Shown here: piece by piece, positions 4,860 through 23,041 of the stretch | Layout of the letters: every line of letters begins with the position of its first letter | Position numbering within the stretch: the first letter of the stretch is position 1 | DNA from: Kalaharituber pfeilii | Taxonomy: Eukaryota > Ascomycota > Pezizomycetes > Pezizales > Pezizaceae | Assembly: GCA_015179045.1 (NCBI GenBank) | Contig: WHUZ01000176.1 | Coordinates: forward strand, 1-50,862 | DNA length: 50,862 nucleotides | Direction of reading: 5' to 3' | Program-made: the position numbers and the translations under genes | Notes under the pieces: model-generated | What the model saw: the letters and a program-made list of their open reading frames with translations, nothing else | Told to the model about the DNA's origin: nothing | The model's database searches: none

Positions 4860-7159
4860 ACAAGCAATAGTATTCTGACACCCTGAGGTCATCAAAAAAT
4901 ACTAAACTCTAGAGAAGAGATGGGAAAGATGAAAATAGACTAGAACATATAATTCAACAAATCTATTCAGCCTATTCTGACTTTGAACCCCACAATCCTG
5001 AAACCTCCATAGATGACGGCTCAGATTCTGAGGAAATTCACTTCAACAATCTCTTCCCCACCGATAAGGAGGATAACTTGGTAAATGCATCTTCTGACAC
5101 CACAAGTTGGACTTCCGCTTCCACTTCTGTCAAGATTTGTGAAAGGACACTTTCCTTTCCTTCTGAATACAAAGCCAGAGTTCTATTATACTAGCATATG
5201 TTTCGTCATCTCTAGAATGTCTCCTCCAATATTTTCCAGCCCTTTATGAATGCTCTAGACTACAAGCTTACTCAGTTCTTTCAAACATGTGGGATTTCCA
5301 GATTTCATATTAATGAATTCTTTAAAGATAGAATAATGGCAGCGGCAGTAGAGAATGATCTAATGTATAGAGTCTTTTTTCACTCAAGTCATACTTTATA
5401 CAAACTTCTGGATACAATGGCTTCTAAACTACAATAGACTGAAGGAATTGTAAAATATTGACTAGAACCAGAAACTTAATTCGACTATTGCAATATATTG
5501 CAATGTATTAAGTATCTCCTATGTCAGAGGGTCTATGTAGAGAACATGGTATGGAGTCCAGTAAAAGAGATGGATAGCAAAGGCAAGTAGATCTATAATG
5601 AGATATATACTGTACATTAGTGGTAGGACACACAAGTAATATAATTGCACCCTGCTTATAGCATATCTTATACGAAAGTTAGGTAGCTCACGTTACCAAT
5701 TGGATCTATACTCATCTTAATTCTTCTCGCCTCTGACATGACATACCTTACCAACTTTTCCAGCAGCAAAAAGCTATGGCCCCTCTATCTCAGTATAGGG
5801 AATATTACATCTTGAGTCCGAAATATGCCCTCAATAAATACTTGAATTCCCTTAGCTCTTCTGCTGATTTCACCTAAAAGAGTTTCTGGTATTGATGGAT
5901 ATTCTATTAACACCCAAAAGCAGGAGTTATTAGATGTTATTCATAAACTATTAGCATACATACTGAAGCTACTATCTAATTCTGCATACCATAAAGGGAT
6001 TGAAATCGTGTGTACTAATAAGTAAGTCTAACTTTGCATCCCTTATATCTCTGGATAGCTTACTGATTATCTTAAAAACTGTACCATACATGGTATAAAG
6101 TCAAATCTATGCACAATTTGCAGTTCACTAAAAAAACAGTTAGGTGAACTACCTGAAGCTGGTTGTAAATACCCTAAACAAGACCACAAAGCCTACACCA
6201 CTGCCTATTGCAAATCTAATAAAAAGAGTCTTCTTTCTAATAGTATAAAGTATATAGAAAATGCATTATGGTTATTCCTAGACATTATCCTACATAAGCT
6301 TATTCGAGCTGATATTTTCTACTACCTATTCTTTGGCATCACCAGTACTAATTATATGATGAAGTAGATTCAAGTATTTCTTAAAAAGCATGACTGCCTA
6401 GTCCCATTCGATTATATATAGAAGAGATTGCCTGTTTACCCCAGATTTCATCCTCATAAAAAGGCTTACAGATCTGTCTCTCAGTGGTCTAGTAAGAAAA
6501 TGCGGTATATTGGAAAGGTTATATTAGGTGCTTTTACTGCTACTTTATATTAGACAGCCAATCAACTATAGTTGACAGGAGAACAAAAACAAGACTTCGA
6601 TAAAGCAATCTCCTGCATCAGATATCTAATAGATTTTATACTAATGGCACAGTATAGAAGTCATACTGTATCTACTATTGCATACATAGAGAAGTATTTA
6701 CAGAAGTTCCATGAGCACAAGGATGTCTTCCTCGCTTGCTATGCTAGGAAAGAAGTATGGAACGAGGCTAGAAAAGCAAAACAATAACTTGCATCAGATT
6801 ATTGTCTTGCAGAAGCTTCTGAGTGATACACTATAGTACAACGAGAGCAGTTGAGGAAAGAGCACCAATTAGAGTGTTAGTTATTAGTTGAGGACCTTTT
6901 AGAAGAAGAAGCTAACTTCAACTTCTCTAAGATCCATATACTCTCTCACTACACTGAGCAAATACCCAGGTATGGTAGCTTGCTACAATACTCTACCGAA
7001 ATATATGAAACCTACCACAAGCTTATAAAAGATGCTTACAATCGAAGTAATCATATTGATGCTATGTTATAAATTGTGCAGATATACATATGGGATCCTG
7101 AATTTACTATAAGAGATAAGAACCTAGAGGCATGGTGAAAAGAGTTACTACATGTCAAA
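4860..7159 (+). pseudogene. RIP-decayed Plavaka-type (KDZ superfamily) DNA transposase
   Basis: Conceptual reading on + gives the landmarks of fungal Plavaka transposases in the right order. There is an N-terminal acidic region (about 4980-5170). Next comes a block ending in CIKYLL, VENMVWSP and YNEIYTVH with Trp codons turned to TAG (about 5450-5620). Then comes the core LTNFSS-KK-WPLYLSIGNI (about 5745-5810), preceded by the Asp-bearing strand. Last is a C-terminal block with KIHILSHYTEQIPRYGSL and YHKLIKDAYNRSNH (about 6935-7060). Open segments remain at 5246-5434 and 6572-6784. Premature TAG/TAA/TGA codons are mostly where Gln, Trp or Arg would sit, plus frame changes, so it cannot make transposase. 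It is cut at 7159 by the 5' LTR of element A, and its downstream half is not found on the other side of A. No terminal inverted repeats were found. Family call is from recalled motifs. Confidence 0.75.
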
Positions 7160-7403
7160 TGTTATGGAATAACAATTTAGAAACAATTAACCATTAAGGT
7201 TATTGTTTAAACATTTTTCTTGCCCTGAACTAACTACTTACTGTTACCCTGAATTTCCTTACTCATGTATTACTAACATATCATATAATGTTTTAAGGTG
7301 CTTGTAGGGTTGGGGACCCTCCCCTACACCTTGAAACATAATAGTGCGGAGGCTTACAAACTTGGCACCATTTAGAATATATTTTTACTTACAGTTGTTT
7401 TCA

Positions 7404-7481
7404 TGAAACACATTAGTGTTTCAACAAGAGGATGAAACACACTAGTGTTTCGACAAGGGGATGAAACGGAGCTATGTTTCA
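7404..7481. promoter_or_regulatory. three inverted TGAAACA repeats in the A LTR U3 (Ste12-like sites)
   Basis: Palindromic 20-mers start at 7404, 7433 and 7462, i.e. every 29 bp; the first two have TGAAACAC and GTGTTTC half-sites. A further TGAAACA lies at 7332-7338. TGAAACA is the known pheromone-response element bound by yeast Ste12 and its filamentous homologues. The array sits 60-140 bp upstream of the TATA box, where an LTR enhancer would be expected. Binding is inferred only from the motif. Confidence 0.55.
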
Positions 7482-7543
7482 GGATTCATGTAGTAAGTTT
7501 TAAATGAAAAACTTATACTAGTTATGTGCAGGGGTGGAAAAGG

Positions 7544-7552
7544 TATATAAAG
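7544..7552 (+). promoter_or_regulatory. TATA box of the A 5' LTR
   Basis: TATATAAAG downstream of the inverted repeats and about 120 bp upstream of the LTR sense ORF. Its counterpart is 17390-17398 in the 3' LTR. Transcription would begin roughly 30 bp downstream, making the LTR ORF the first ORF of the genomic RNA. Confidence 0.65.
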
Positions 7553-7671
7553 AGTTCTGATTTCTGCTTCAAGATAGATCTTTAGACTACAAGAGAGTTC
7601 CTCAGCAACCATCTACAAGAGAAGTTCTCAAGTAGATACTCTGAAGCTATCTTAGTTAGATAGTTTTTCTT

Positions 7672-8040
7672 ATGGATAGAGTACAATTCAAAGCAATCAG
7701 ACTTACTTTACCTCTCACTTCAAGAGTGAAAAGATATATCTTTATTAGCAACTGCCACCCACAGCATAGCCCAAGTCTACTATCAACTATCTGTAGCCTA
7801 AATACTTTAATAGGTTGTTATTCTGTTAAACCATTGGGGTCACTGCCTGCTTGTCAAAGAAGAATAGTACAGGTACTATTCAAGTTTAGAAACACCTGGG
7901 CAGAGGGTTAAATTATTGAAGCATACACAAAAGACAGAAACTGCATACTAGAATTCCTTTACTATCAAAGTCCAGAGGAAACAACCCTATACCAACCCCT
8001 CATAACTATCCTGTATTCCTGCCAAGAAAACCTCTTCTAG
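7672..8040 (+). pseudogene. LTR-borne sense ORF, 122 codons (5' LTR copy, one internal stop)
   Basis: I do not recognise this protein. The same 123-codon frame including the stop (M[D/N]R.QFKAIRL at the start, ILYS..ENLF at the end) occurs in both A LTRs and in the lone LTR at 22301. This copy has one TAA at codon 80 where the 3' LTR has CAA, a C-to-T change. No signal peptide or membrane segment is visible. The composition is that of a small soluble protein with a conserved middle (LSTICSLNTL, GCYSVKPLGSLP) and an Ile/Leu/Tyr-rich C-terminus suggesting beta strands. It starts about 120 bp after the TATA box, so it would lead the sense transcript, and ends 45 bp before the convergent antisense exon. 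Coding constraint is argued under the 3' copy. Confidence 0.6.
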
Positions 8041-8375
8041 GGACTCCATCTTTCCAGAGAATCTTGAAAGCCCCATAAGGTTCCCTACACCATAGTATCT
8101 GCTGGAGGAGAATAACTTGGGGGAGAAGACAAATTAATACCAATAGAAGCAGAAACCTCTTCCTCCCTTTTCCCCTCACAACAGGAATCACACATAGGCT
8201 AGAAATAACAAGAGTAGTAAAGCAAAAGGAAAAAACCCAGAATACTAAAAATAACAACAATAACAATCTCACCAGGAGAAAGACTAACCCCAACTGAAAT
8301 CCCACCAGAAGTACCAGAGCCAGTCCTAGGGGGACTTGCTCTAGGAAAAACCCAAAAACCATCAGTCTCTGCAAC

Positions 8376-8448
8376 CTATTGAGGCAAGAACTCTAGGTTA
8401 GCATTGAGAACATACAATATTTTTAAGTCTTGCAGAATTGAGACATAC
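8376..8448 (-). other. intron spanning the LTR/internal boundary of A
   Basis: On the minus strand the donor is AAG|GTATGT at 8448, the branch site TGCTAACC is at 8403-8396 and the acceptor CTCAATAG ends at 8376. The LTR ends at about 8422, inside this intron. The branch and acceptor half is therefore repeated in every LTR (18221 onward in the 3' LTR; 22994 onward in the lone LTR), while the donor exists only next to the 5' LTR. Confidence 0.65.
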
Positions 8449-9962
8449 CTTAAGACCTATCAAAAAAACTAGCATTCCTTGAACTCCCCTCACTACCATT
8501 CTCAAAACACCTCAACTCCTCAGCAACAAATTTCTGAAGCTTCACAGAATCCAAGTCCCTCCTGACAGACTCTAGGTGTTCAGAAATAGGAGGAAGAGTG
8601 TGATAACCAGCATCAGGATCATAAGTCCCAATCCTCCTTGCATCATAAAGATTAGCAAGTTGAGGAACAAGGGGCTCCATAGGCTGACAAGCACCTACTC
8701 CCTCTAGGACAATCCAATCCTCCATTTCCTTGGTATTGAGCTGACCAGTTAAAGTCACAAAAAAGTCATTCATCATAATACCAGTTTCAATAGAAGGAAA
8801 GAGGGCCTCTAAGTCTATCAATCCCAATACTCTCATCAATCAACCTGGAAAAATAACAAGGCTTAAAGTCATAGAAAAAGTGACCACAGAAAATTTCTGT
8901 TCTGATTGATTCCCTTGCCTTTTCCATTACCAAGTGGGTAAAAGGAGAATCAAGCCTTGCATTATTCCAAGAAGCAGAAAAGGGAAGGAAGTAAAAAGGA
9001 ACACCAACCTCCTTACCAGCAACATCCTCCAAAACCCACTGTGCATCATCTCCAGCTGCCCTTTTGATAGCTGCACAGGTGGACAGCCACAGACACCAGG
9101 AAAAAGAAGATTGAAGCAAGCTTCACCTTCTAGGAGGAATTTCCTCAGTATCCATAGCTAAGGAAGAGTCACTTTTAGTACTAGCCTTGAAGCAGAAGGA
9201 ACAAGAACAAGAAGGACTGATCATTCACTCCAACTGCTCTCAGAAGGAATATCACTGGGAGAAGGAGACCAATCCTCAATAGAAGGATTGGTAGGAGGAC
9301 ATTCCCATTCTAAAACCAAGTCAGTAACATAACATACATAAGGAATAGGCAACTCACTAGCCTCAACTGCTTGCCTAGCCTGCTTAGTCAAGGCCTTATC
9401 AAAAGCCTTACTCTGATCCAGAAATACTGGAATAAAGTCAGTCTGAGGAGAAACCATAGAAGAAGAAGAGGAAGAAGTACTGTGATAATCCACCCCAAGA
9501 TCCTCTACCTTATTAATATAAGCCAGGGTAGATTCATCATAACCCTGGTTGAGTTGAGCTGAACCATAGTCAGTATACTGGTCAAGAGGAATAGAAGAAC
9601 TAGTGTTACTAATCATCTTCTTCTCCCTCTTCCTATTACACTTGGCACAAGTATATCTACCTGTACCAGGGAAAAGGGTAACACAGTCCTGGTAAAAAAG
9701 GTGATTAATAGGCAAAGGAATAGGAGACTGAAGAATTTCTTTTGAGATAAGAGTATCTCCACCCTCAGACCAGGACAATTGGACAGCATTCTCATACTCA
9801 GAAACCCCACCAAAAAATTAGTTTTGCCTTCCCAGTGAGGCTCATCCTAATAGGACTCAAAAGTCCTAACTAAGGAACATGCAGTCTACCTTCCACTCCT
9901 TAGGACTAGCCTTAGACCTTATTAAGGCCCTGGACTGATCAACCAGAGTCAAGTCAGTATTC

Positions 9963-10032
9963 CTATAAGGGATACAAAGTTAGCTAACAAATCTTTTGAA
10001 ATAAAAAGAGATAAAAACAGAAAAGAACATAC
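9963..10032 (-). other. first recognisable intron of the antisense gene
   Basis: The donor GTATGT is at 10032-10027, GCTAAC branch-like sequence lies about 20 nt before the acceptor, and TTATAG ends at 9963. Removing 70 nt joins the exon ending ..PEGLE to a frame reading NTDLTLVDQSRAL without a stop for over 30 codons. The unspliced frame ends quickly, which supports genuine splicing on the minus strand. Confidence 0.6.
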
Positions 10033-10314
10033 TCAAGGCCTTCTGGAACATTTTCAAAGTTGTCCCAGATATCAAGAAGAGTATCAGCCATCTTGTATAC
10101 CCTCTCCATAGAATCAGGTTGGCTCCAATAATTTGATTCATCCAAGAATTCATCAAGTCACAAAGGATATCCCTCATAACCCTCCCAGAAAGGCAAGCCT
10201 CTGGACATTTGAGAAGGTTTCTCAGTTTAGCCTTAAGAAAGTAGTAACCAGTGGTTACCCTAAAAGCACCAGGAGCCAACTTGGTAGAGTGTGCAAAGGT
10301 AGTCATCTAGAAGA

Positions 10315-12180
10315 ATGGCAACACCAGGGTTATATGACAGTCCAAGAAAAGGACAACCAAGGGAATGGGCTTACCTTGAATATATAACTGTAGAAAAAAG
10401 AGATATTGAGGAAGATGAAGAAAAAGCACCCCTATATATCACTACAGTTAATTTGGTTGCTAGAGAATATAATCTCCCAGGAAAGAAAATAATAGTAACA
10501 TATACATGCAACATAAAGAAGCTAGAGTTTTGGGAAGAAACTCTGGACCCTATTATAGCAGAAACAAACCACTTTGCAAAAACAGTAAAGAAAGAAAAGG
10601 AATTATGCTATCTGCAAAGAGGAGTAGCAAAATACCTAATATGGAAGCACTATGGAACAAGTGTTCATGTTACTTCCTTTGTGAAAACAAAGGTAGTAAG
10701 ACCATTTGAAGAACTTGCAGACAAACAGATAATCTGGGATGAAAAATGGGGCAACACAGAAAAAGAAGCATAGCACTACTTCCTAATACCTGAGAAAGAA
10801 GAAAAAGAATCCTGGGATAAGGTATGGAAGAAACATAGACCAACAGGTATCAAAAGAAGTAACTGGCTAGAAAGAAACTGGAACAGCATACTTGCTTTCT
10901 TGGATATGGTAAATAACACAAAATGAAGAGAAGAGGTAAAGAAACCAGAAGAACTGGAGAAGGAGGAGATGAACAAGAACACAGTAGCAGTGAAAGTGAA
11001 AAAAGCCAGAAAAGCCACATAAGCATTAAAAGCCTTCAAAGTACAGCAAAAGGAGGAAAAGGCTCCTCTCCACTATCACCCAGTAGCTCTGAACCAAGTA
11101 CAGCATCATACTACTCAGACAGCTCAGAAGCAAGAAAGTCAAAAGAAAGAAGAATAAAAACAAAAGCAAAGAAGAAAAGCCTAGCTGCAAAAGCAATAAA
11201 ACATGGAGAAGATTTTGTAGAATGGGAAAGACTTACTGGAAACATAGTCCCAAAAGTAACTGGATCTACTTTAGGAAAAAAGCTAAAAGTAGATATAGAA
11301 AAGTGTGATGGTAGTAGCAAGTGGAGAAAAGCTGAAGAATTTGATGGTTGGGGGCAGAAGATGATGCTGTATCAGACAATGTTGGGAGAAACTCTTTGGG
11401 GAAAGAAGGGTTTAAATCCTTAGGATTCTGGCTAGAAAAAGAGCCAAGACTAAGATGGGAAGCCTACACTAGAGACAAAAAACTAAGGAGCATAGTAAAT
11501 TTCCTGCTAAGCCTAAGAAAAAGCCTAATCCCTATCACAGAAAGCCAAGACCTGTACAGGAAATATAACAGTACCATGCAAGGAAACTCAACAGTCATGG
11601 ATTATGCAAATGAAATAAAACACCTAGCCTCAAAGATAAGCCATATTAAAGGAAACCAGGATGCTATGATTCAAAAATTCATGGATGGCCTTAATAAACA
11701 ACTATGGAAGGAAGTAGGACCTAAAGTAGAAGGTATCACTGAATTTGACAAGGTTGTTGAAATTGCACAAAAACAAGAAAAATACACCATAGCTGCAGGG
11801 GTATCATCAGCCAACAAAAAAGCAATGGATGAATTTTTTAGCAAGCCCATGAAACAAGGCATGAAAATGAGCAAAAAAGCAGCAAGAGCATCCTGGAAAG
11901 AACCACCAAAAAAAGAAACAAAGCCTACCAACAAACCTACAACTCAATAAAAAAGAGGATCAGCAACTCCTAGGGAGGAAAATCCACTAGAGGAGGCAGG
12001 GGAGGAGGCAGAGGTGGTTCAACAAATAAACCAAGTAAGGCCACTAAGGATAAATGGTTTGCAGAAGGAAAGTGCCTAGAATGTGGAGATCCCATCACCA
12101 AGTAAAAGACTGTCCAAAAAAGAACAAGGATAAGAAAAAGGATGAGAAAAAATCTTCACAAGCTGTAACAGCCCAACAAT
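10315..12180 (+). pseudogene. element A gag (broken by stops and frameshifts)
   Basis: Sense gag starts at 10315 (MATPGLYDSP). The first 152 codons end in TAG at 10771 but the same frame continues as clear coding sequence to about 10920. A Ser/Lys-rich segment follows in another frame (10923-11423). The capsid-like retrotransposon gag domain lies in a third frame (11348-11950), with RWEAY, YNSTMQGNSTVMDYANEIKHL and FMDGLNKQLW typical of the family. After a further frame change come an Arg/Gly-rich box (about 11970-12020) and a zinc knuckle at 12073-12113 (C-X2-C-X4-H-X4-C) whose two halves are offset by one base. Gag packages the RNA and forms the particle. This copy cannot make it without frame correction. 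Its start overlaps the region where the antisense gene begins and lies 1.9 kb from the LTR. Confidence 0.8.
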
Positions 12181-12853: not shown

Positions 12854-13659
12854 TCACACCTGAAGGCCCAACAGAACTGCCACCAAACAGACCTGGGCTA
12901 GACCATAGAATAAGGCTAAAAGACCAAAAGCTACATGGAAAACCAAGCTAATTCCTATGGCACAGGCATTTAAGCAGCAATGGGAAGAAAAAGTAAGAAC
13001 AGAATTAAAAACAAAGAGGATGAAAACTGTCAGAACAAAAGACAAGGATTACACCAATATTCTGCCAGCCTAAGCATGATAATCCAAAAAAAGGCAAGAT
13101 TTCTGTTTGACCTAAGAGAAAGAAATAAGCACACCATCACAGATGACACAAAGATCCCAGACATATTTGACATCATCAGAGATATAGGAGACATGCCTTA
13201 TCTCTCTAAATTTGATGTACATGATGGCTATCACAACCTAAGAATAGACCCAAGAGATGAACACCTTACAGCATTTCAAGTACCAGGTACCCTGTATATG
13301 AGATAAGGGTAATGCAACAAGGAGATAAAAATGCCCCTGCAAGTATGGTGAAATTCATGAATCATGTATTCATGGAATTACTATACAGATGTGTAAGGAT
13401 CTACTTAGATGACATCTTTGTCTATAGTAGAACCCTAGAACAACACTGGGAAGATCTGTGTAAAGTGGCAGAGCTAGCAAAAGAAAATAAGCTAGCCTTC
13501 AAAATAAGTAAGTGTGAAATATTACCTGAGGAAGTACATGCATTAGGCCACCTAATTACAAAGGAAGGAATAAAAGCAGACCAAATCAAAATAGATAAGG
13601 TCTGTAATTTCCCTGTACCTAAGAATAGAAAGCAGCTGCAAAGCTTTCTAGGTTGGTAA
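12854..13659 (+). pseudogene. element A reverse transcriptase
   Basis: RT palm and fingers are spread over two frames: 12980-13306 (ends KFDVHDGYHNLRIDP and the region before the PFGL-like turn) and 13312-13659 (MQQGDKNAPASMVKFMNHVF, then the catalytic YLDD at 13402-13413, then ALGHLITKEGIK and PKNRKQLQSFLGW). A one-base shift near 13290-13310 separates them, and a TAA directly follows LGW. Sequence motifs, including PxGxxNAPA-like QQGDKNAPA, are those of Ty3/Gypsy RT. The upstream end near 12854 is also out of frame. The fold is complete in content but not translatable as one polypeptide. Confidence 0.85.
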
Positions 13660-13803
13660 TCTATTTGACAAAATTTACACCTGGACTGGCCCTAGCAATG
13701 GCCCCATTAACAACTCAGGCAGGTGAGACACAAGAATGGAATTGGACACCCATGCATGACCATGCCATAAAATTAATTAAGGAATGCATTAAAAATAGTA
13801 AGC

Positions 13804-14230
13804 TTGATCAGGCCACTTGACTATATGTCAGGCCAACCAATATTTTTAGTCACAGATGCAAGCACAACTGGCATGGGTGCATGGATTGGACAAGGAGAAA
13901 GTCCTGAAACAGCAGTACCAGCAGGGTTCTGGTCAGGAAAATTTGGCAAGGCAGAATTCAATTACTCAACATATGAAAAAGAACTGTTGGCAATAGTTAA
14001 TGCACTAAGAGTATTCAGAAATGAACTGATAGGCACACATGTGATAATTTACACAGATCACAGCCCACTAGTTGCATTTCTCAAAAAATTAGACCTAAGG
14101 CCAAGAATGCAAAGATGGAAAGAGGTGTTACAAGAATTTGACTGTGAAGTAAGGCACTGGGCAGGAAATAAAAATAGAGGAGCTGACATCCTCTCAAGGA
14201 TAAATACCCAGTGGCCTCCCCTCAAGCCAG
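13804..14230 (+). pseudogene. element A RNase H domain
   Basis: The frame opens with TDASTTGMGAWIGQ, then YEKELLAIVNALRVFRNEL, TDHSPLVAFL, and ends HWAGNKNRGADILSRIN. These carry the catalytic Asp of TDAS, the Glu of EKEL and the Asp of YTDH, and the domain-closing RGADILSR, as in Ty3/Gypsy RNase H. It degrades the RNA strand during reverse transcription. The domain itself is intact and fused in frame to a Pro-rich linker that runs on to 14718. It is separated from RT by about 140 bp in shifted frames. Confidence 0.88.
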
Positions 14231-15296
14231 AGGAAGTCCACAGATACCTACAGACCATCTCCTCTGCTGCCACCTCTATACAGACCCCACACCCTCCAAC
14301 TCTTGCCTTAGCACCAACACCACCACTCACACCTCCACCAACAACACTACCAGCACCAACAAAAATGTCTGCCTTCCTCTCCTCCTCCTCTCCCTCCAAG
14401 ATGACCTGGGCTGCAGTTGCAGCCAATGGAGCTCCTCTTCCTCCTCTTCCTCCTCCTCCTCCAGGCCAGCAGTCCCTGGAGGAACCATCTCTCCTCCTCC
14501 TCCTACTCCCTCCCATCTCTGGCATATATGGGGCAGAAGATGAAGCTCCTACCACCAATGGTAGGAGAAGAATCCCTCTTCCTCCCTTCCAACCAGACCC
14601 AAGGGGCCCATCAAGGGCTTTGAGGGTGCCCCTGGCTCCTTCACTCCTGGGGAGGATGCCAGGGACAGAAGGTCCAGGAGAAAGTTGTCTCCCCTGGGCA
14701 GAATGGCCACAGGGTTGAGAAGAAGACTGTGGGGAGACCACCCCACAAAAAGGTACAGATCCAACTCCCTCCTCCCTCTCCACAAAGCCTGGAACACCCT
14801 GGAGCACAAGCTCCTACACTGGACAACCTGCAAGTTTGAGGAATGCCTTGTGCATGCCTCAGACAAGGAGGTTGCTGGTCCCAGGGTAAGGCCAGCTAAC
14901 CCTGAGGCACTGCCAGACCTCAGGTCAACTTTCAGGCAGAACTTGTGGAAAGACAATGTTCTGTCTGAAATCCAGGACATGGAGAATTCCATGTACCTGA
15001 AGCTGGCCCAAGGGGCTAGAAAAAATCAGGACCCACAGCTCAACTTAGAGCATGGGTTTAGGACAGAGGGAGCAGAGGCTTCCACCTTTGACCAAGAGGA
15101 TGTGGAGATGAAGAACATCCTGGAGGACAAAGGGTAGAAGGGTGAGTACATCCAAACAATCCTGCAAGACCCCTCCTTTTCTTTTGCCTACCAGTGGCCT
15201 ACACTGGCAGGGCCACTGTGGGCAGTAAAGGAAGGGTGGCTCCTGAAGTATGACAGGGGCCAGGAAGTTTGGAGGGTCTGTGTACCCAGGAACTTA
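14231..15296 (+). other. unusual 300-codon linker between RNase H and integrase
   Basis: The RNase H frame continues into a Pro/Thr/Ser-rich region (TPPLTPPPTTLPAP, a TWAAVAANG motif, PPLPPPPPG and a Leu run) to 14718. It then switches to the 14685-15137 frame, a charged helical segment containing EIQDMENSMYLKLAQG, and finally to sequence leading into the integrase zinc region. Typical Gypsy pol has a few dozen residues here. The base composition (CT-rich, GC-richer) differs from the AT-rich, purine-rich remainder of the element. Acquisition of foreign coding sequence or expansion of a spacer are both possible. No recognised domain. Confidence 0.6.
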
Positions 15297-16169: not shown

Positions 16170-16898
16170 ATGCCTGGCAGATGGGTATGGCTATCAAATA
16201 AGAACTTGTCTGAGAAGGTAAAAACCCCTCTTGTTTGCTGGGAAGGTCCTTTTAAAATCCTACAGTATGATGCTAAATTGGACAATGTCAAACTCAAGCT
16301 ACCTCCAACATACAAAATACACCCATGGTTCCATTCCTCCCTCATCAAACCATACTCACAAAAGAGACCCTCAACAATTCCCTGGATTTACAGCCACAGA
16401 ACCAGGACCTGTTGAAGGAGACAGATGGGAAGTAGAAAGGCTCCTCCAGTTCAGGCTTAGGCCAATAACTGGAGAACCTCAATACTTAGTGAAATGGAAA
16501 GGATATGACCTAGAGGAGGACAAGAAGGAACTAACAACTGGGTAAATGAGGAGGACATTGACTTTAAGTTAAAAAAGGATTTCTGGGAAAAAGAAGACAT
16601 GGAAAAAACATTCAGGTTCAGAAAAAGAAATGTAGGGACTAGCAAAGGGAGGTCTAGGGAAAAAACTTATGACTTGATAAAGCAGCAAATGAAGAAGTAT
16701 ACCCAGAAGAGTTCTGCTGCTATAACAAGATTTGTTAATACCCACCATAACAAAGCAAAAGAGGAGGACACTCCTTTACCCTATACCCCTCCTATTTCCC
16801 AGTTTGAAGAATTAAAAGAAATTTTAAGAGAAGGAATACCCCAAGGAAGAAGCATAACCTTTTCTGATGAGATTTTCTTGTATATTGGAAAATACTAG
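16170..16898 (+). pseudogene. element A integrase C-terminus, chromodomain and tail
   Basis: 16170-16415 encodes the integrase C-terminal SH3-like module (RWVWLSNKNL, GPFKIL, HPWFHSSLIKPY). A frame change leads to the chromodomain at about 16426-16570: WEVERLL, then YLVKWKGYDLEED, and after a one-base shift NNWVNEEDI. Chromodomains of this class steer integration to heterochromatin marked by histone H3 methylation, which suits the repeat-rich location. After the chromodomain a Lys-rich tail of about 110 codons (16599-16898), ending ..FSDEIFLYIGKY, is longer than usual for chromoviruses. The stop lies about 100 bp before the 3' LTR. Confidence 0.82.
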
Positions 16899-16995: not shown

Positions 16996-17005
16996 AAGGG
17001 GGAAG
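16996..17005 (+). promoter_or_regulatory. polypurine tract of element A
   Basis: AAGGGGGAAG lies directly before the 3' LTR start TGTCATGG. This is the expected priming site for plus-strand DNA synthesis and fixes the LTR start at 17006. Confidence 0.85.
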
Positions 17006-17250
17006 TGTCATGGAATAACAATTCAGAAACAATTAACCATTAAGGTTATTGTTTAAAAATTGTTCTTGCCCTGAACTAACTACTTACTGTTACCCTGAAT
17101 TTTCTTACTCATGTATTACTAACATATCATGTAATGTTTTGAGGTGCTTGTAGGGTTGGGGACCCTCCCCTACACCTTGAAACATAATGGTGCGGAGGCC
17201 TACAAACTTGGCACCATTCAGAATGTATTTTTACTTACAAGATGTTTTCA

Positions 17251-17328
17251 TGAAACACACTAGTGTTTCAACAAGGGGATGAAACAACACTAGTGTTTCA
17301 ACAAGGGATGAAACGGAGCTACGTTTCA
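17251..17328. promoter_or_regulatory. inverted TGAAACA repeats, 3' LTR copy
   Basis: Three palindromes, at 17251, 17280 and 17309, with four exact TGAAACA/TGTTTCA half-sites in the first two. They match the 5' LTR array with the same 29-bp step, so the array is a stable feature of the LTR. Confidence 0.55.
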
Positions 17329-17516
17329 GGATTCATGTAGTAAGTTTCAGATGAGAAACTTACACTAGTTATGTACAGGGTGGAAAAGGTATATAAAGGG
17401 TTCTGATTTCCGCTTTCAGATAGATCTTCAGACTGCAAGAGAGTTCCTCAGCAACCGTCTACAAGAGAAGTTCTCAAGTAGACATCTGAAGCTATCTTAG
17501 TTAGATAGTTTTCCTT

Positions 17517-17885
17517 ATGGATAGAGTACAATTCAAAGCAATCAGACTTACTTCACCTCCCACTTCAAGAGTGAAAAGATATATCTTTATTAGCAACTGC
17601 CACCCACAGCATAGCCCAAGCCTACTATCAACTATCTGTAGCCTAAATACTTTAACAGGTTGTTATTCTGTTAAACCATTAGGGTCACTACCTGCTTGTC
17701 AAAGAAGAATAGTACAGGTACTATTCAAGTTTAGAAACACCTGGGCAGAAGGTCAAATTATTGAAGCATACACAAAAGACAGAAACTGTATAATAGAATT
17801 CCTTCACTATCAAAGTCCAGAAGAAACAACCCTATACCAACCCCTCATAACTATCCTGTATTCCTGCCAAGAGAACCTCTTCTAG
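17517..17885 (+). CDS. LTR-borne sense ORF, 122 aa, intact
   Basis: An uninterrupted 122-codon frame starting ATGGATAGAGTACAATTC, about 120 bp downstream of the LTR TATA box. It is unknown to me. The protein begins MDRVQFKAIRL, has two central Cys-containing blocks (ISNCHPQHSP, TICSLNTLTGCYS), a basic turn CQRRIVQVLFKFR and ends ILYSCQENLF. No membrane segment or known catalytic motif. The lone LTR at 22301-22669 encodes a protein of exactly the same length, about two thirds identical by my alignment, with no net indel and a single stop that a C-to-T change explains. Surrounding LTR sequence needs gaps to align. That pattern argues for a translated, selected protein. The 5' LTR copy would be expressed as the first ORF of element RNA; this 3' copy would be transcribed only as read-out. 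Confidence 0.7.
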   Translation: MDRVQFKAIRLTSPPTSRVKRYIFISNCHPQHSPSLLSTICSLNTLTGCYSVKPLGSLPACQRRIVQVLFKFRNTWAEGQIIEAYTKDRNCIIEFLHYQSPEETTLYQPLITILYSCQENLF

Positions 17886-17929
17886 GGACTCCATCTTTCT
17901 AGAGAATCTTGAAAGTCCTATAAGGTTCC

Positions 17930-18220
17930 CTAAACCACAGTATCTGCTGAAGAAGAATAACTTGGGGGAGAAGACAACTCAACACCAACAGAAACAGAAA
18001 CCTCCTCCTCCCTTTCCCTCTCACAACAGGAACCACACATAACCTCAGAAATAACAAGAGTAGTAAAGCAAAAGGAAAAAACCCAGGACACTAAAGATAA
18101 CAACAACAACAATTTGACTAGGAGAAAGATAACCCCCACTAAGACCCTACCAGAAGTACCAGAGCCAGTCCTAGGGGAACTTGCTCTAGGGAAAACCCAA
18201 AAACCATCAGTCTCTGCAAC
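17930..18220 (-). CDS. terminal exon of the antisense gene, 3' LTR copy (open)
   Basis: After the acceptor (CTCAATAG, ending at 18221) the frame is open for 96 codons to a TAG at 17930-17932. It opens VAETDGFWVFPRA, passes a long hydrophobic segment of about 30 residues that can span a membrane, then CGSCC, a charged run EREREEE, and ends SSPPSYSSSADTVV, containing PPSY. Compared with the 5' LTR copy two one-base offsets bracket the hydrophobic segment, so the two copies read the membrane helix in different frames yet share both ends. Lacking its donor exon here, it can be expressed only if spliced from a downstream minus-strand transcript. Confidence 0.55.
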   Translation of the reverse strand, partial: VAETDGFWVFPRASSPRTGSGTSGRVLVGVIFLLVKLLLLLSLVSWVFSFCFTTLVISEVMCGSCCEREREEEVSVSVGVELSSPPSYSSSADTVV

Positions 18221-18267
18221 CTATTGAGGCAAGAACTCTAGGTTAGCATTGAGAACATCCAATATTT

Positions 18268-22190: not shown

Positions 22191-22300
22191 CGCTCGCTTT
22201 GCCCGCAGAGATAGTTCTTCAGAGTTCTTGAGCCAGAGCACATAGGAAGTACCTTCACTCTGACTTCTCTGAAGCTATCTAAAGTTTAGATAGTTTTAGT

Positions 22301-22669
22301 ATGAATAGGACACAATTCAAAGCAATCAGACTTATCTCTTCTCCCACCTCACCAGTGAATAGTTATAGATTCTACAGTAATTGTATCCCCAATAGAAGCC
22401 CATCTTTATTCTCTACAGTTTGTAGTCTAAATACCTTGACTGGAATTTATTCAATAAAACCATTGGGCACATTATCCTATTGTTAGCAAAGGATAATTCA
22501 GGTATTGTTCAAATTCAGAGACAACCAGTCAGAAGGACAAATACTTGAAAACTTCTCAAGAGACAGAAGAGCAAAAATTGAATTCATTCAATACATTAGC
22601 TTAGAAGAAACAACATTATACCAACCACAGATAACCATCCTATACTCCTCAACTGAGAACCTGTTTTAG
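22301..22669 (+). pseudogene. LTR-borne sense ORF, diverged copy with one stop
   Basis: Starts MNRTQFKAIRL and ends ILYSSTENLF, with the same 122 codons as 17517-17885 and no net insertion or deletion. The single TAG (codon 62) aligns with a Gln codon in A. Changes cluster in a few variable segments (residues 18-33 and 75-95), while LSTxCSLNTLTG, YSxKPLG, QVLFKFR and EETTLYQPxITILYS are retained. The pattern is that of a protein under constraint followed by one recent RIP-type hit. Confidence 0.65.
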
Positions 22670-22721
22670 GACTTTAGGAGAACCATCTGTCTAGAGACTC
22701 TTGGAACCTCTCCTAGAAGTA

Positions 22722-22993
22722 TTAAACATTCTCAGAAGAAGAATAAGGAGGAGGCAAAACAGACAAAGGAACCTCTTCTTTCCTCCTCTTCCTATACCTA
22801 TAGCAGTCCAGAAAACATCAACAGACAACAATTAAAACAAAAAGACCAATAAAGCAAAACAAGATAATAAGACCAATTTCATCAGTAGTTAAAGAAAGAC
22901 AAAGAAACCCTTTCCACCCTTTAAAGTACCAGAGCCTGTTGAACTAGGAGGTTTAACAGCTCTAGAGAATACCAAAACCACCATCTCTGCAAC
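22722..22993 (-). pseudogene. terminal exon of the antisense gene, lone LTR copy
   Basis: After the acceptor CTCAACAG the exon opens VAEM. In one frame it then encodes TTDEIGLIILFCFIGLFVL (a membrane helix), a TGA, then DCYRYRKRRKEE and the tail LPPPYSSSENV before TAA. The PPPY corresponds to PPSY in A. The exon is 272 nt rather than 291, so at least one frame change is present upstream of the helix. The branch site TGCTAACC is also kept. Confidence 0.5.
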
Positions 22994-23041
22994 CTGTTGA
23001 GAAATACCTCCAGGTTAGCATATTGAGAAACCTTAACATTT

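Follow-up and report, generated by a model that had tools for sequence, protein, structure and literature searches.

A likely accessory gene with predicted introns lies antisense to a chromovirus of Kalaharituber pfeilii and is predicted to end in its long terminal repeat

Contig WHUZ01000176.1 of the desert truffle Kalaharituber pfeilii (assembly GCA_015179045.1) carries a chromodomain-bearing Ty3/gypsy retrotransposon, a chromovirus. On the strand opposite gag and pol of this element we identified a likely antisense gene with predicted introns, which spans the 1.9-kb leader between the 5' long terminal repeat (LTR) and a sense open reading frame (ORF) at 10315 and is predicted to end inside the LTR. 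The window, that is the whole stretch of 50,862 nucleotides analysed here, is contig C86 in our numbering of the searched genome (360 contigs, 78 Mb). All parts of the antisense gene lie on the minus strand.

Four coding exons are defined by the better preserved copies in contigs C221, C164 and C263. Starting at a conserved ATG, exon 1 has about 91 codons; about 170 or slightly more belong to exon 2, about 263 to exon 3 and about 92 to exon 4, and exons 1 to 3 together would encode about 520-550 residues. In the window, exon 1 (10033..10306) starts with the ATG at 10306-10304, ends with ...NVPEGLE and shows, in pieces, 40-47% amino acid identity to exon 1 of C263; its frame is broken near 10130-10157. 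The initial annotation had let the gene start at 10109, but the coding homology of exon 1 extends upstream to the ATG. Intron 1 (9963..10032) has a GTATGT donor, the branch sequence GCTAAC at 9984-9979 and a TAG acceptor, and intron 3 (8376..8448) shows the same three motifs, so that the consensus signals claimed earlier for both introns were confirmed. The first splice, said to join PEGLE to NTDLTLVDQ with no stop for more than 30 codons, indeed opens a frame of 31 codons, and the same junction is found in P0012 (BDZ91DRAFT_768962), a public gene model that fits the window sequence. Across eight copies intron 1 retains the GT donor and GCTAAC in all and the TAG at the same position in six; in C166 and C105 the acceptor AG comes one base further on.

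Exon 2 (9224..9962) contains an open ORF at 9224-9817 with 34% amino acid identity to exon 2 of C263, and its frame is broken between about 9869 and about 9817. Position 9224 is approximate, as the low end of the exon passes into exon-3-like sequence and no intron was recognised there. Copies of the C221 group have an extra predicted intron between exons 2 and 3 (GTAAGT...CTAAC...TTTAG), which was not recognised in the window lineage. Exon 3 (8450..9223) is present as the frameshifted pieces 8790-9122 and 8453-8839 and ends with ...FFDRS and a TAA stop at 8452-8450. Upstream of the ATG lies a candidate intron 0 in the 5' untranslated region (10307..10374), with donor GTAAGC and acceptor CTAG right before the ATG. 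Its donor reads GTAAG[CT] in all nine aligned copies, and AG precedes (AA)ATG in eight of them. We regard it as a weak candidate, because its donor overlaps the conserved codons W-A-Y-L-E of the sense ORF.

Self-BLAST placed the LTR pair at 7157-8422 and 17003-18267 with a 93.4% match. Comparison of 5' and 3' LTR copies, including those of other families, refined the 5' LTR, which begins with TG, to 7160..8419 on the plus strand, and LTR copies of other families gave TTTTTAAGTCTTGCAG as the start of the internal part. An LTR end near 8084 had been assumed before; the real end is about 335 bases later. The placement of the gene between the 5' LTR and gag thus stands for exons 1 to 3 but not for the terminal exon, which falls inside the 5' LTR. 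Intron 3 straddles this border and consists of 44 nucleotides of LTR end and 29 nucleotides of adjoining internal sequence. We compared it in 15 of the 18 contigs with an exon 3 match, leaving out C297, C302 and C211: the donor is GTAAGT or GTATGT in 15 of 15 copies, CTAAC is present in 13 and a YAG acceptor again in 15. Of the two splices that had been described as in frame, only the first is; the frame of exon 3 ends at the TAA one base before the donor of intron 3.

Exon 4 (8085..8375) starts with VAETDGFWVFPRA..., and its predicted product has a hydrophobic helix, a charged stretch and a PPSY motif (codons at 8112..8123, hand-counted on the translation) before the stop at 8087-8085. In the 5' LTR the frame is interrupted by one TAG at 8201-8199. 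The 3' LTR (17006..18264, plus strand) holds a second copy of exon 4 free of stops (17933-18220, minus strand), whose middle part is in a shifted frame relative to the close copy C30.

When two antisense pieces were compared with the genome, relatives with 31-42% amino acid identity were found besides C30. Five pieces were mapped, and in all 15 contigs with both LTR and antisense matches they keep their order and run against the direction of the LTR. The recurrence of homologous antisense exons at the corresponding position of other LTR families bears out the proposal of an intron-bearing antisense gene belonging to the element lineage. A survey of reverse transcriptase (RT) sequences (E cut-off 1e-20, 150 of 325 candidates scored, so that the counts are lower bounds) revealed RT relatives with 62-100% identity on at least 10 contigs. 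Exon 3 matches were found in seven of these (C86, C30, C164, C211, C290, C221 and C234), C165 and C239 had an exon 4 match only, and C205 had none. The next RT group, with 40-42% identity at at least 11 places, had no adjoining exon 3 match. From these comparisons the antisense gene looks specific to one chromovirus clade.

Thirteen public gene models (P0001-P0013), named "hypothetical protein", match the antisense exons. A protein search with a piece of exon 2 returned one match, from K. pfeilii, and a search with the exon 3 alignment returned 12, all from K. pfeilii, among the best 7990 candidates scored. No source gene was found, and no intact host paralogue was among the matches. A search with the sense ORF gave no match at E 0.01, own-genome copies included; misses in the protein searches are therefore weak evidence of absence. 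C297 and C302, the two loci for which no LTR match was obtained, have stops. C302 (443810-451379) appears to be an old copy in which a gap of about 6.8 kb, perhaps the result of another insertion, parts antisense exons 3 and 2.

The antisense frames of exons 1 to 3 bear marks of purifying selection. The ratio of nonsynonymous to synonymous substitution rates (dN/dS) was 0.28-0.48 in seven of eight comparisons for exon 1 (the eighth, C290, gave 1.24), 0.13-0.54 in all nine for exon 2 and, for exon 3, 0.25-0.58 in the 10 of 12 comparisons that gave a defined value. Taken together, 26 of 27 defined comparisons fall between 0.13 and 0.58. As an example, exon 2 of C221 and exon 2 of C263 have 13, 6 and 33 differences at codon positions 1, 2 and 3. 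In exon 3 the antisense frame is stop-free in C221, C164 and C263, whereas the other five frames hold 2-24 stops in C164 and 3-19 in C263. The initial annotation had named loss of the splice sites or frames from all other copies, or a lack of minus-strand splicing and of codon bias, as the outcome that would speak against the gene; sites and frames are kept in other copies, and the low dN/dS points the same way. An artefact of the sense strand or of base composition was considered for exons 1 to 3 and judged unlikely from the six-frame stops and the dN/dS values.

The window copy itself is broken, and the differences from C30 are a pattern of recent decay. Over 7157-10400, 178 of 205 substitutions are transitions, and 18 indels were counted, 12 of them of one base. 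These indels and the TAG in the exon 4 frame of the 5' LTR agree with the frameshifts reported before for this copy. In exon 4, window and C30 differ at 4, 6 and 18 sites of codon positions 1, 2 and 3.

For exon 4 we examined 24 copies, after removal of C220 and leaving out contigs without the junction motif. The frame is open for at least 83 codons in 13 copies; the frame starting with VAE runs for 91-100 codons in 12 of these and for 84 in one. A first-order Markov simulation gave a chance of 0.003-0.022 for such an open run in the six copies tried. All 13 open copies encode a 19-residue hydrophobic stretch with a mean Kyte-Doolittle value of 2.5-3.3. Lysine and arginine are more numerous after the predicted helix than before it in 12 of the 13, the exception being the 3' LTR copy of the window, and in the window lineage the residues that follow the helix are mixed arginine and glutamate and not purely basic. 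Furthermore, 11 of the 13 open copies have a PPxY motif (PPPY or PPSY), with codons that differ synonymously between families. The motif lies 8 residues from the stop in nine copies, 7 in C223 and 16 in C263; the two open copies without it are C267, which reads SPSY, and C166, which stops just before. The helix alone is weak evidence, because T-rich strands give hydrophobic residues in any frame, and the frame length, the charged stretch and the PPxY motif appear to be the stronger points for exon 4.

In summary of these comparisons, we see purifying selection on exons 1 to 3, conserved predicted splice signals and, just after the last predicted acceptor, an open frame in the LTR with putative helix, charge and PPxY motif. 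Our favoured explanation, to which we give a probability of roughly 0.6, is a conserved and likely accessory antisense gene of this K. pfeilii chromovirus clade, which has predicted introns, spans the leader, is predicted to end in the LTR and likely encodes a product that acts at membranes through its PPxY tail. An antisense promoter within or ahead of the sense ORF would start transcription somewhere around 10.3-10.8 kb, and the transcript would extend into the 5' LTR, perhaps including the 5' intron at 10374-10307. The introns would be spliced out of the antisense RNA only, while the genomic RNA, being the other strand, would keep them unspliced and transmit them at each retrotransposition. 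That antisense introns persist because the replicating RNA is the opposite strand had been proposed in the initial annotation, and we consider this reasoning sound. The last intron would cover the junction of LTR and internal part, where the primer site is expected, and this stretch would then serve both strands. Through the LTR exon the protein would gain a tail that crosses the membrane once, and the PPxY on the cytosolic side of this tail could bind a ubiquitin ligase of the NEDD4/Rsp5 type. Such binding might carry the antisense product, perhaps along with element particles or membrane proteins of the host, into the endosomal route of the ESCRT (endosomal sorting complexes required for transport) machinery. 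A PPxY motif on a membrane protein is the mark of Rsp5/NEDD4 membrane adaptors, and 11 of the 13 open exon 4 copies have such a motif together with a predicted helix; the excess of lysine and arginine after the helix is the one feature that bears on a cytosolic position of the motif.

Several results weigh against this explanation. Each of the three better preserved copies has a frame break in some exon, and 2-18 stops interrupt the antisense frame in 10 of the 12 exon 3 copies that were set against C221. Among the six frames the antisense one ranks lowest in dN/dS in only 17 of 27 defined comparisons; six times it is undercut by the mirror sense frame alone, and four times by further frames (exon 1 of C166, C234 and C290, and exon 2 of C290). 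Between window and C30 there is no excess of third-position differences in exons 1 and 2 (15, 6 and 10 in exon 2). Exon 4 gives mixed dN/dS values, 0.29-1.28 in nine comparisons, and 0.28-0.85 plus one of 1.36 in the pairs above 72% identity (24 of 78) for which the value was read. The 13 open copies of exon 4 are not independent, as C221, C164 (twice) and C272 are close to each other. Moreover, the abundance of T on the antisense LTR strand in itself promotes hydrophobic codons, and a further frame of that strand looks hydrophobic too. No antisense piece had a Pfam domain above cut-off in the Pfam library, the only one searched, and a structure prediction of P0002, based on an alignment of 11 K. 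pfeilii models including P0002, was uninformative (mean pLDDT, the predicted local distance difference test, of 38) and was set aside. Exon 1 has no start resembling a signal peptide, judged by eye only. As no signal sequence is evident, a cytosolic PPxY that follows a long N-terminal region poses a topological problem: if fused, the tail would come to lie on the wrong side, which favours a separate reading frame or an isoform. Finally, exon 3 ends with (D/G/N)(R/K)(S/Y)-TAA one base ahead of the donor in 15 of 15 copies, a count from which a sixteenth row, the LTR-only copy C336 with a chance pattern match, was dropped. Because of this stop before the last intron, the membrane exon would not be reached by plain splicing and translation.

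Three explanations remain for the join of exons 3 and 4: +1 frameshifting at UCU-UAA-G, alternative splicing or a separate ORF. TCT precedes the stop of exon 3 in 14 of 15 copies, and the conserved splice puts the membrane exon into +1 relative to exon 3. Antizyme, with its programmed +1 frameshift at a stop codon, would be a parallel for such a site. We slightly prefer frameshifting over alternative splicing, because UCU-UAA-G and the proximal donor occur in nearly every copy. The nucleotide conservation at the join may serve splicing or the sense strand as well, as the LTR junction lies there. In the alternative splicing scheme, a distal phase-1 donor (in the window the candidate GTGAGG at 8488..8493) and a second acceptor (GCAG, exon from 8368) would bypass the TAA, enter the membrane frame and yield a membrane-anchored isoform beside the soluble one. 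Distal phase-1 donors with at least 4 of 6 consensus bases are found in 13 of 15 copies and with at least 5 of 6 in seven, including the window lineage and C221, though no chance expectation was computed for these counts. Read by eye, the public models P0003, P0005, P0006 and P0012 appear to handle the join differently, and P0003 and P0005 appear to use the distal donor, but with a different acceptor. C166 and C105 have no distal donor and C290 a weak one, the pattern may merely reflect conserved Gly-Gly-Glu codons, and the proximal donor is present in every copy. We treat alternative splicing as a tentative option, with the balance tilted against it. Skipping of exon 3 into exon 4 would also need the second acceptor, as exon 2 ends in phase 1.

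A separate ORF would mean that exons 1 to 3 encode a soluble protein ending ...DRS-TAA, while the LTR exon, on a different antisense RNA and with an ATG of its own, encodes an N-out membrane protein of about 90 residues with a cytosolic PPxY. The invariant stop before the donor fits this arrangement, as do the charge bias of the helix and the reading VAEM, with an ATG behind VAE, that many copies show. In C86, C30 and C165, the window lineage, however, the reading is VAET and that ATG is lacking, and the acceptor right before VAE, kept in 15 of 15 copies, would be superfluous for a separate start; we find this alternative rather doubtful. Conservation could also stem from a non-coding role of the leader on the sense strand, in priming, packaging or translation, with the antisense frames being incidental. 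The junction of LTR and internal part is conserved beyond the needs of splicing, the interior of the intron included, and the mirror sense frame also has low dN/dS. Yet each of the 12 exon 3 copies has between 8 and 22 stops in this mirror frame, whereas the antisense frame is stop-free in C164 and C263; antisense dN/dS stays below 0.6 in all but one defined comparison, and the PPxY is retained with altered codons. We regard a pure leader role as very improbable. Only a little less improbable is a captured host gene that hitch-hikes with no benefit to the element. The presence of introns and the lack of Pfam homology to known retroelement proteins would suit it, but not the purifying selection across families. 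Nor does it agree with the lack of an intact host paralogue among the matches, the stops in C297 and C302, or the way the gene accompanies RT relatives of at least 62% identity and gave no match beside the next RT group, at 40-42%.

Returning to the accessory gene, an extension of this reading that we regard as conceivable, at less than even odds, is that one antisense protein exists in soluble and membrane-anchored forms through the LTR tail exon. The switch would lie in the UCU-UAA-G and donor at the junction of LTR and internal part, by +1 frameshift or splice choice, and the PPxY tail would lead to ubiquitin and ESCRT in a role like that of env or of a late domain.

Antisense genes of LTR elements are already known from retroviruses and plants. 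The HBZ gene of human T-cell leukaemia virus type 1 (HTLV-1) is antisense, and its alternatively spliced transcripts start in the 3' LTR and have their first exon there (PMC1459196, PMC10186651). Both it and the truffle gene are antisense genes of an LTR element with an exon in the LTR, predicted in our case. HBZ is a nuclear basic leucine zipper (bZIP) factor with its first exon in the 3' LTR, whereas the truffle gene has a predicted last exon in the 5' LTR and a predicted membrane tail; the antisense pieces gave no Pfam match to a bZIP domain at cut-off. Predicted to end in the 5' LTR, the truffle gene probably starts internally. Plant LTR elements such as Grande (gene23), RIRE2 and Retand (TRP28) have conserved antisense accessory ORFs of open function, with examples between pol and the 3' LTR, and additional ORFs in either orientation are also described upstream of gag-pol, citing Steinbauerova et al. 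2011 (PMC7264820, PMC11963269). The leader position alone is therefore perhaps not unique. The word "intron" is missing from the main text of these two articles, and the truffle gene differs in its predicted introns, its terminal exon in the LTR and its residence in a fungal chromovirus. The TRP28 domain (PF04195) had no match at cut-off in the antisense pieces.

The antisense protein ASP of human immunodeficiency virus 1 (HIV-1) is described as having no known homologues and a predicted membrane association (PMC12568219). In these respects and in its antisense origin it is like the truffle gene. ASP overlaps env, and its size and gene structure differ from those of the truffle gene. A mobile element with an antisense gene that contains a spliceosomal intron is known from nuclear group I introns of a myxomycete, where expression of the homing-endonuclease gene was shown (PMC9548176); this element is not a retroelement, and the gene encodes an endonuclease. 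For the tail, yeast Sna3p offers a C-terminal cytoplasmic PPAY that is bound by the WW domains of Rsp5 (PMC2171029). The resemblance is one of layout only, and Sna3p is a host gene with two transmembrane domains, whereas the truffle tail has a single predicted helix. Compared with retroviral Env, the truffle gene has a predicted helix and, by eye, no recognisable signal peptide in exon 1. Among the titles and first lines of abstracts brought up by our literature search on antisense genes of such elements, none described an intron-bearing one for a fungal LTR element, within the terms and collection covered.

The case combines evidence of selection over many families with predicted introns, which identify the coding strand without recourse to any ORF argument, and the recognisable PPxY motif makes the function testable. 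If true, it means that a gene on the opposite strand can have an LTR as exon and the surroundings of the priming site as intron. It also suggests that annotation of elements on one strand misses genes, the public models here being hypothetical proteins.

The chromovirus assignment was made on the window element, whose remaining features lie on the plus strand between the LTRs. Gag (Retrotrans_gag, PF03732, E 2.3e-6) was found at 11345..11947, the reverse transcriptase (PF00078, E 9.3e-17) at 13261..13656 and, where pol ends, a chromodomain (PF00385, E 1.1e-6) at 16222..16542, all above cut-off. Ahead of gag, the sense ORF at 10315..10773, which continues to about 10923, is kept across the clade with 46% amino acid identity to C221, and 9 bases separate its ATG (10315) from the antisense ATG (10306). 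With regard to the primer site, the window copy has no complement of 9 or more bases to 8406-8475 within the LTR and no TGG in 8401-8500. Positions 8420-8450 and their homologues are strongly conserved between families despite the lack of TGG or LTR self-complement in the window copy. Within pol, seemingly after RNase H as judged by eye, a stretch of about 1 kb (13777-14715, plus strand) is GC-rich (52%, against 38-44% in the flanking kilobases) and encodes a proline- and serine-rich sequence; an ORF lies opposite to it at 14058-14807 on the minus strand. A distant second LTR in the window, at 22267-23029, contains an antisense membrane exon at 22740-22910 (minus strand) with 42% amino acid identity and one stop.

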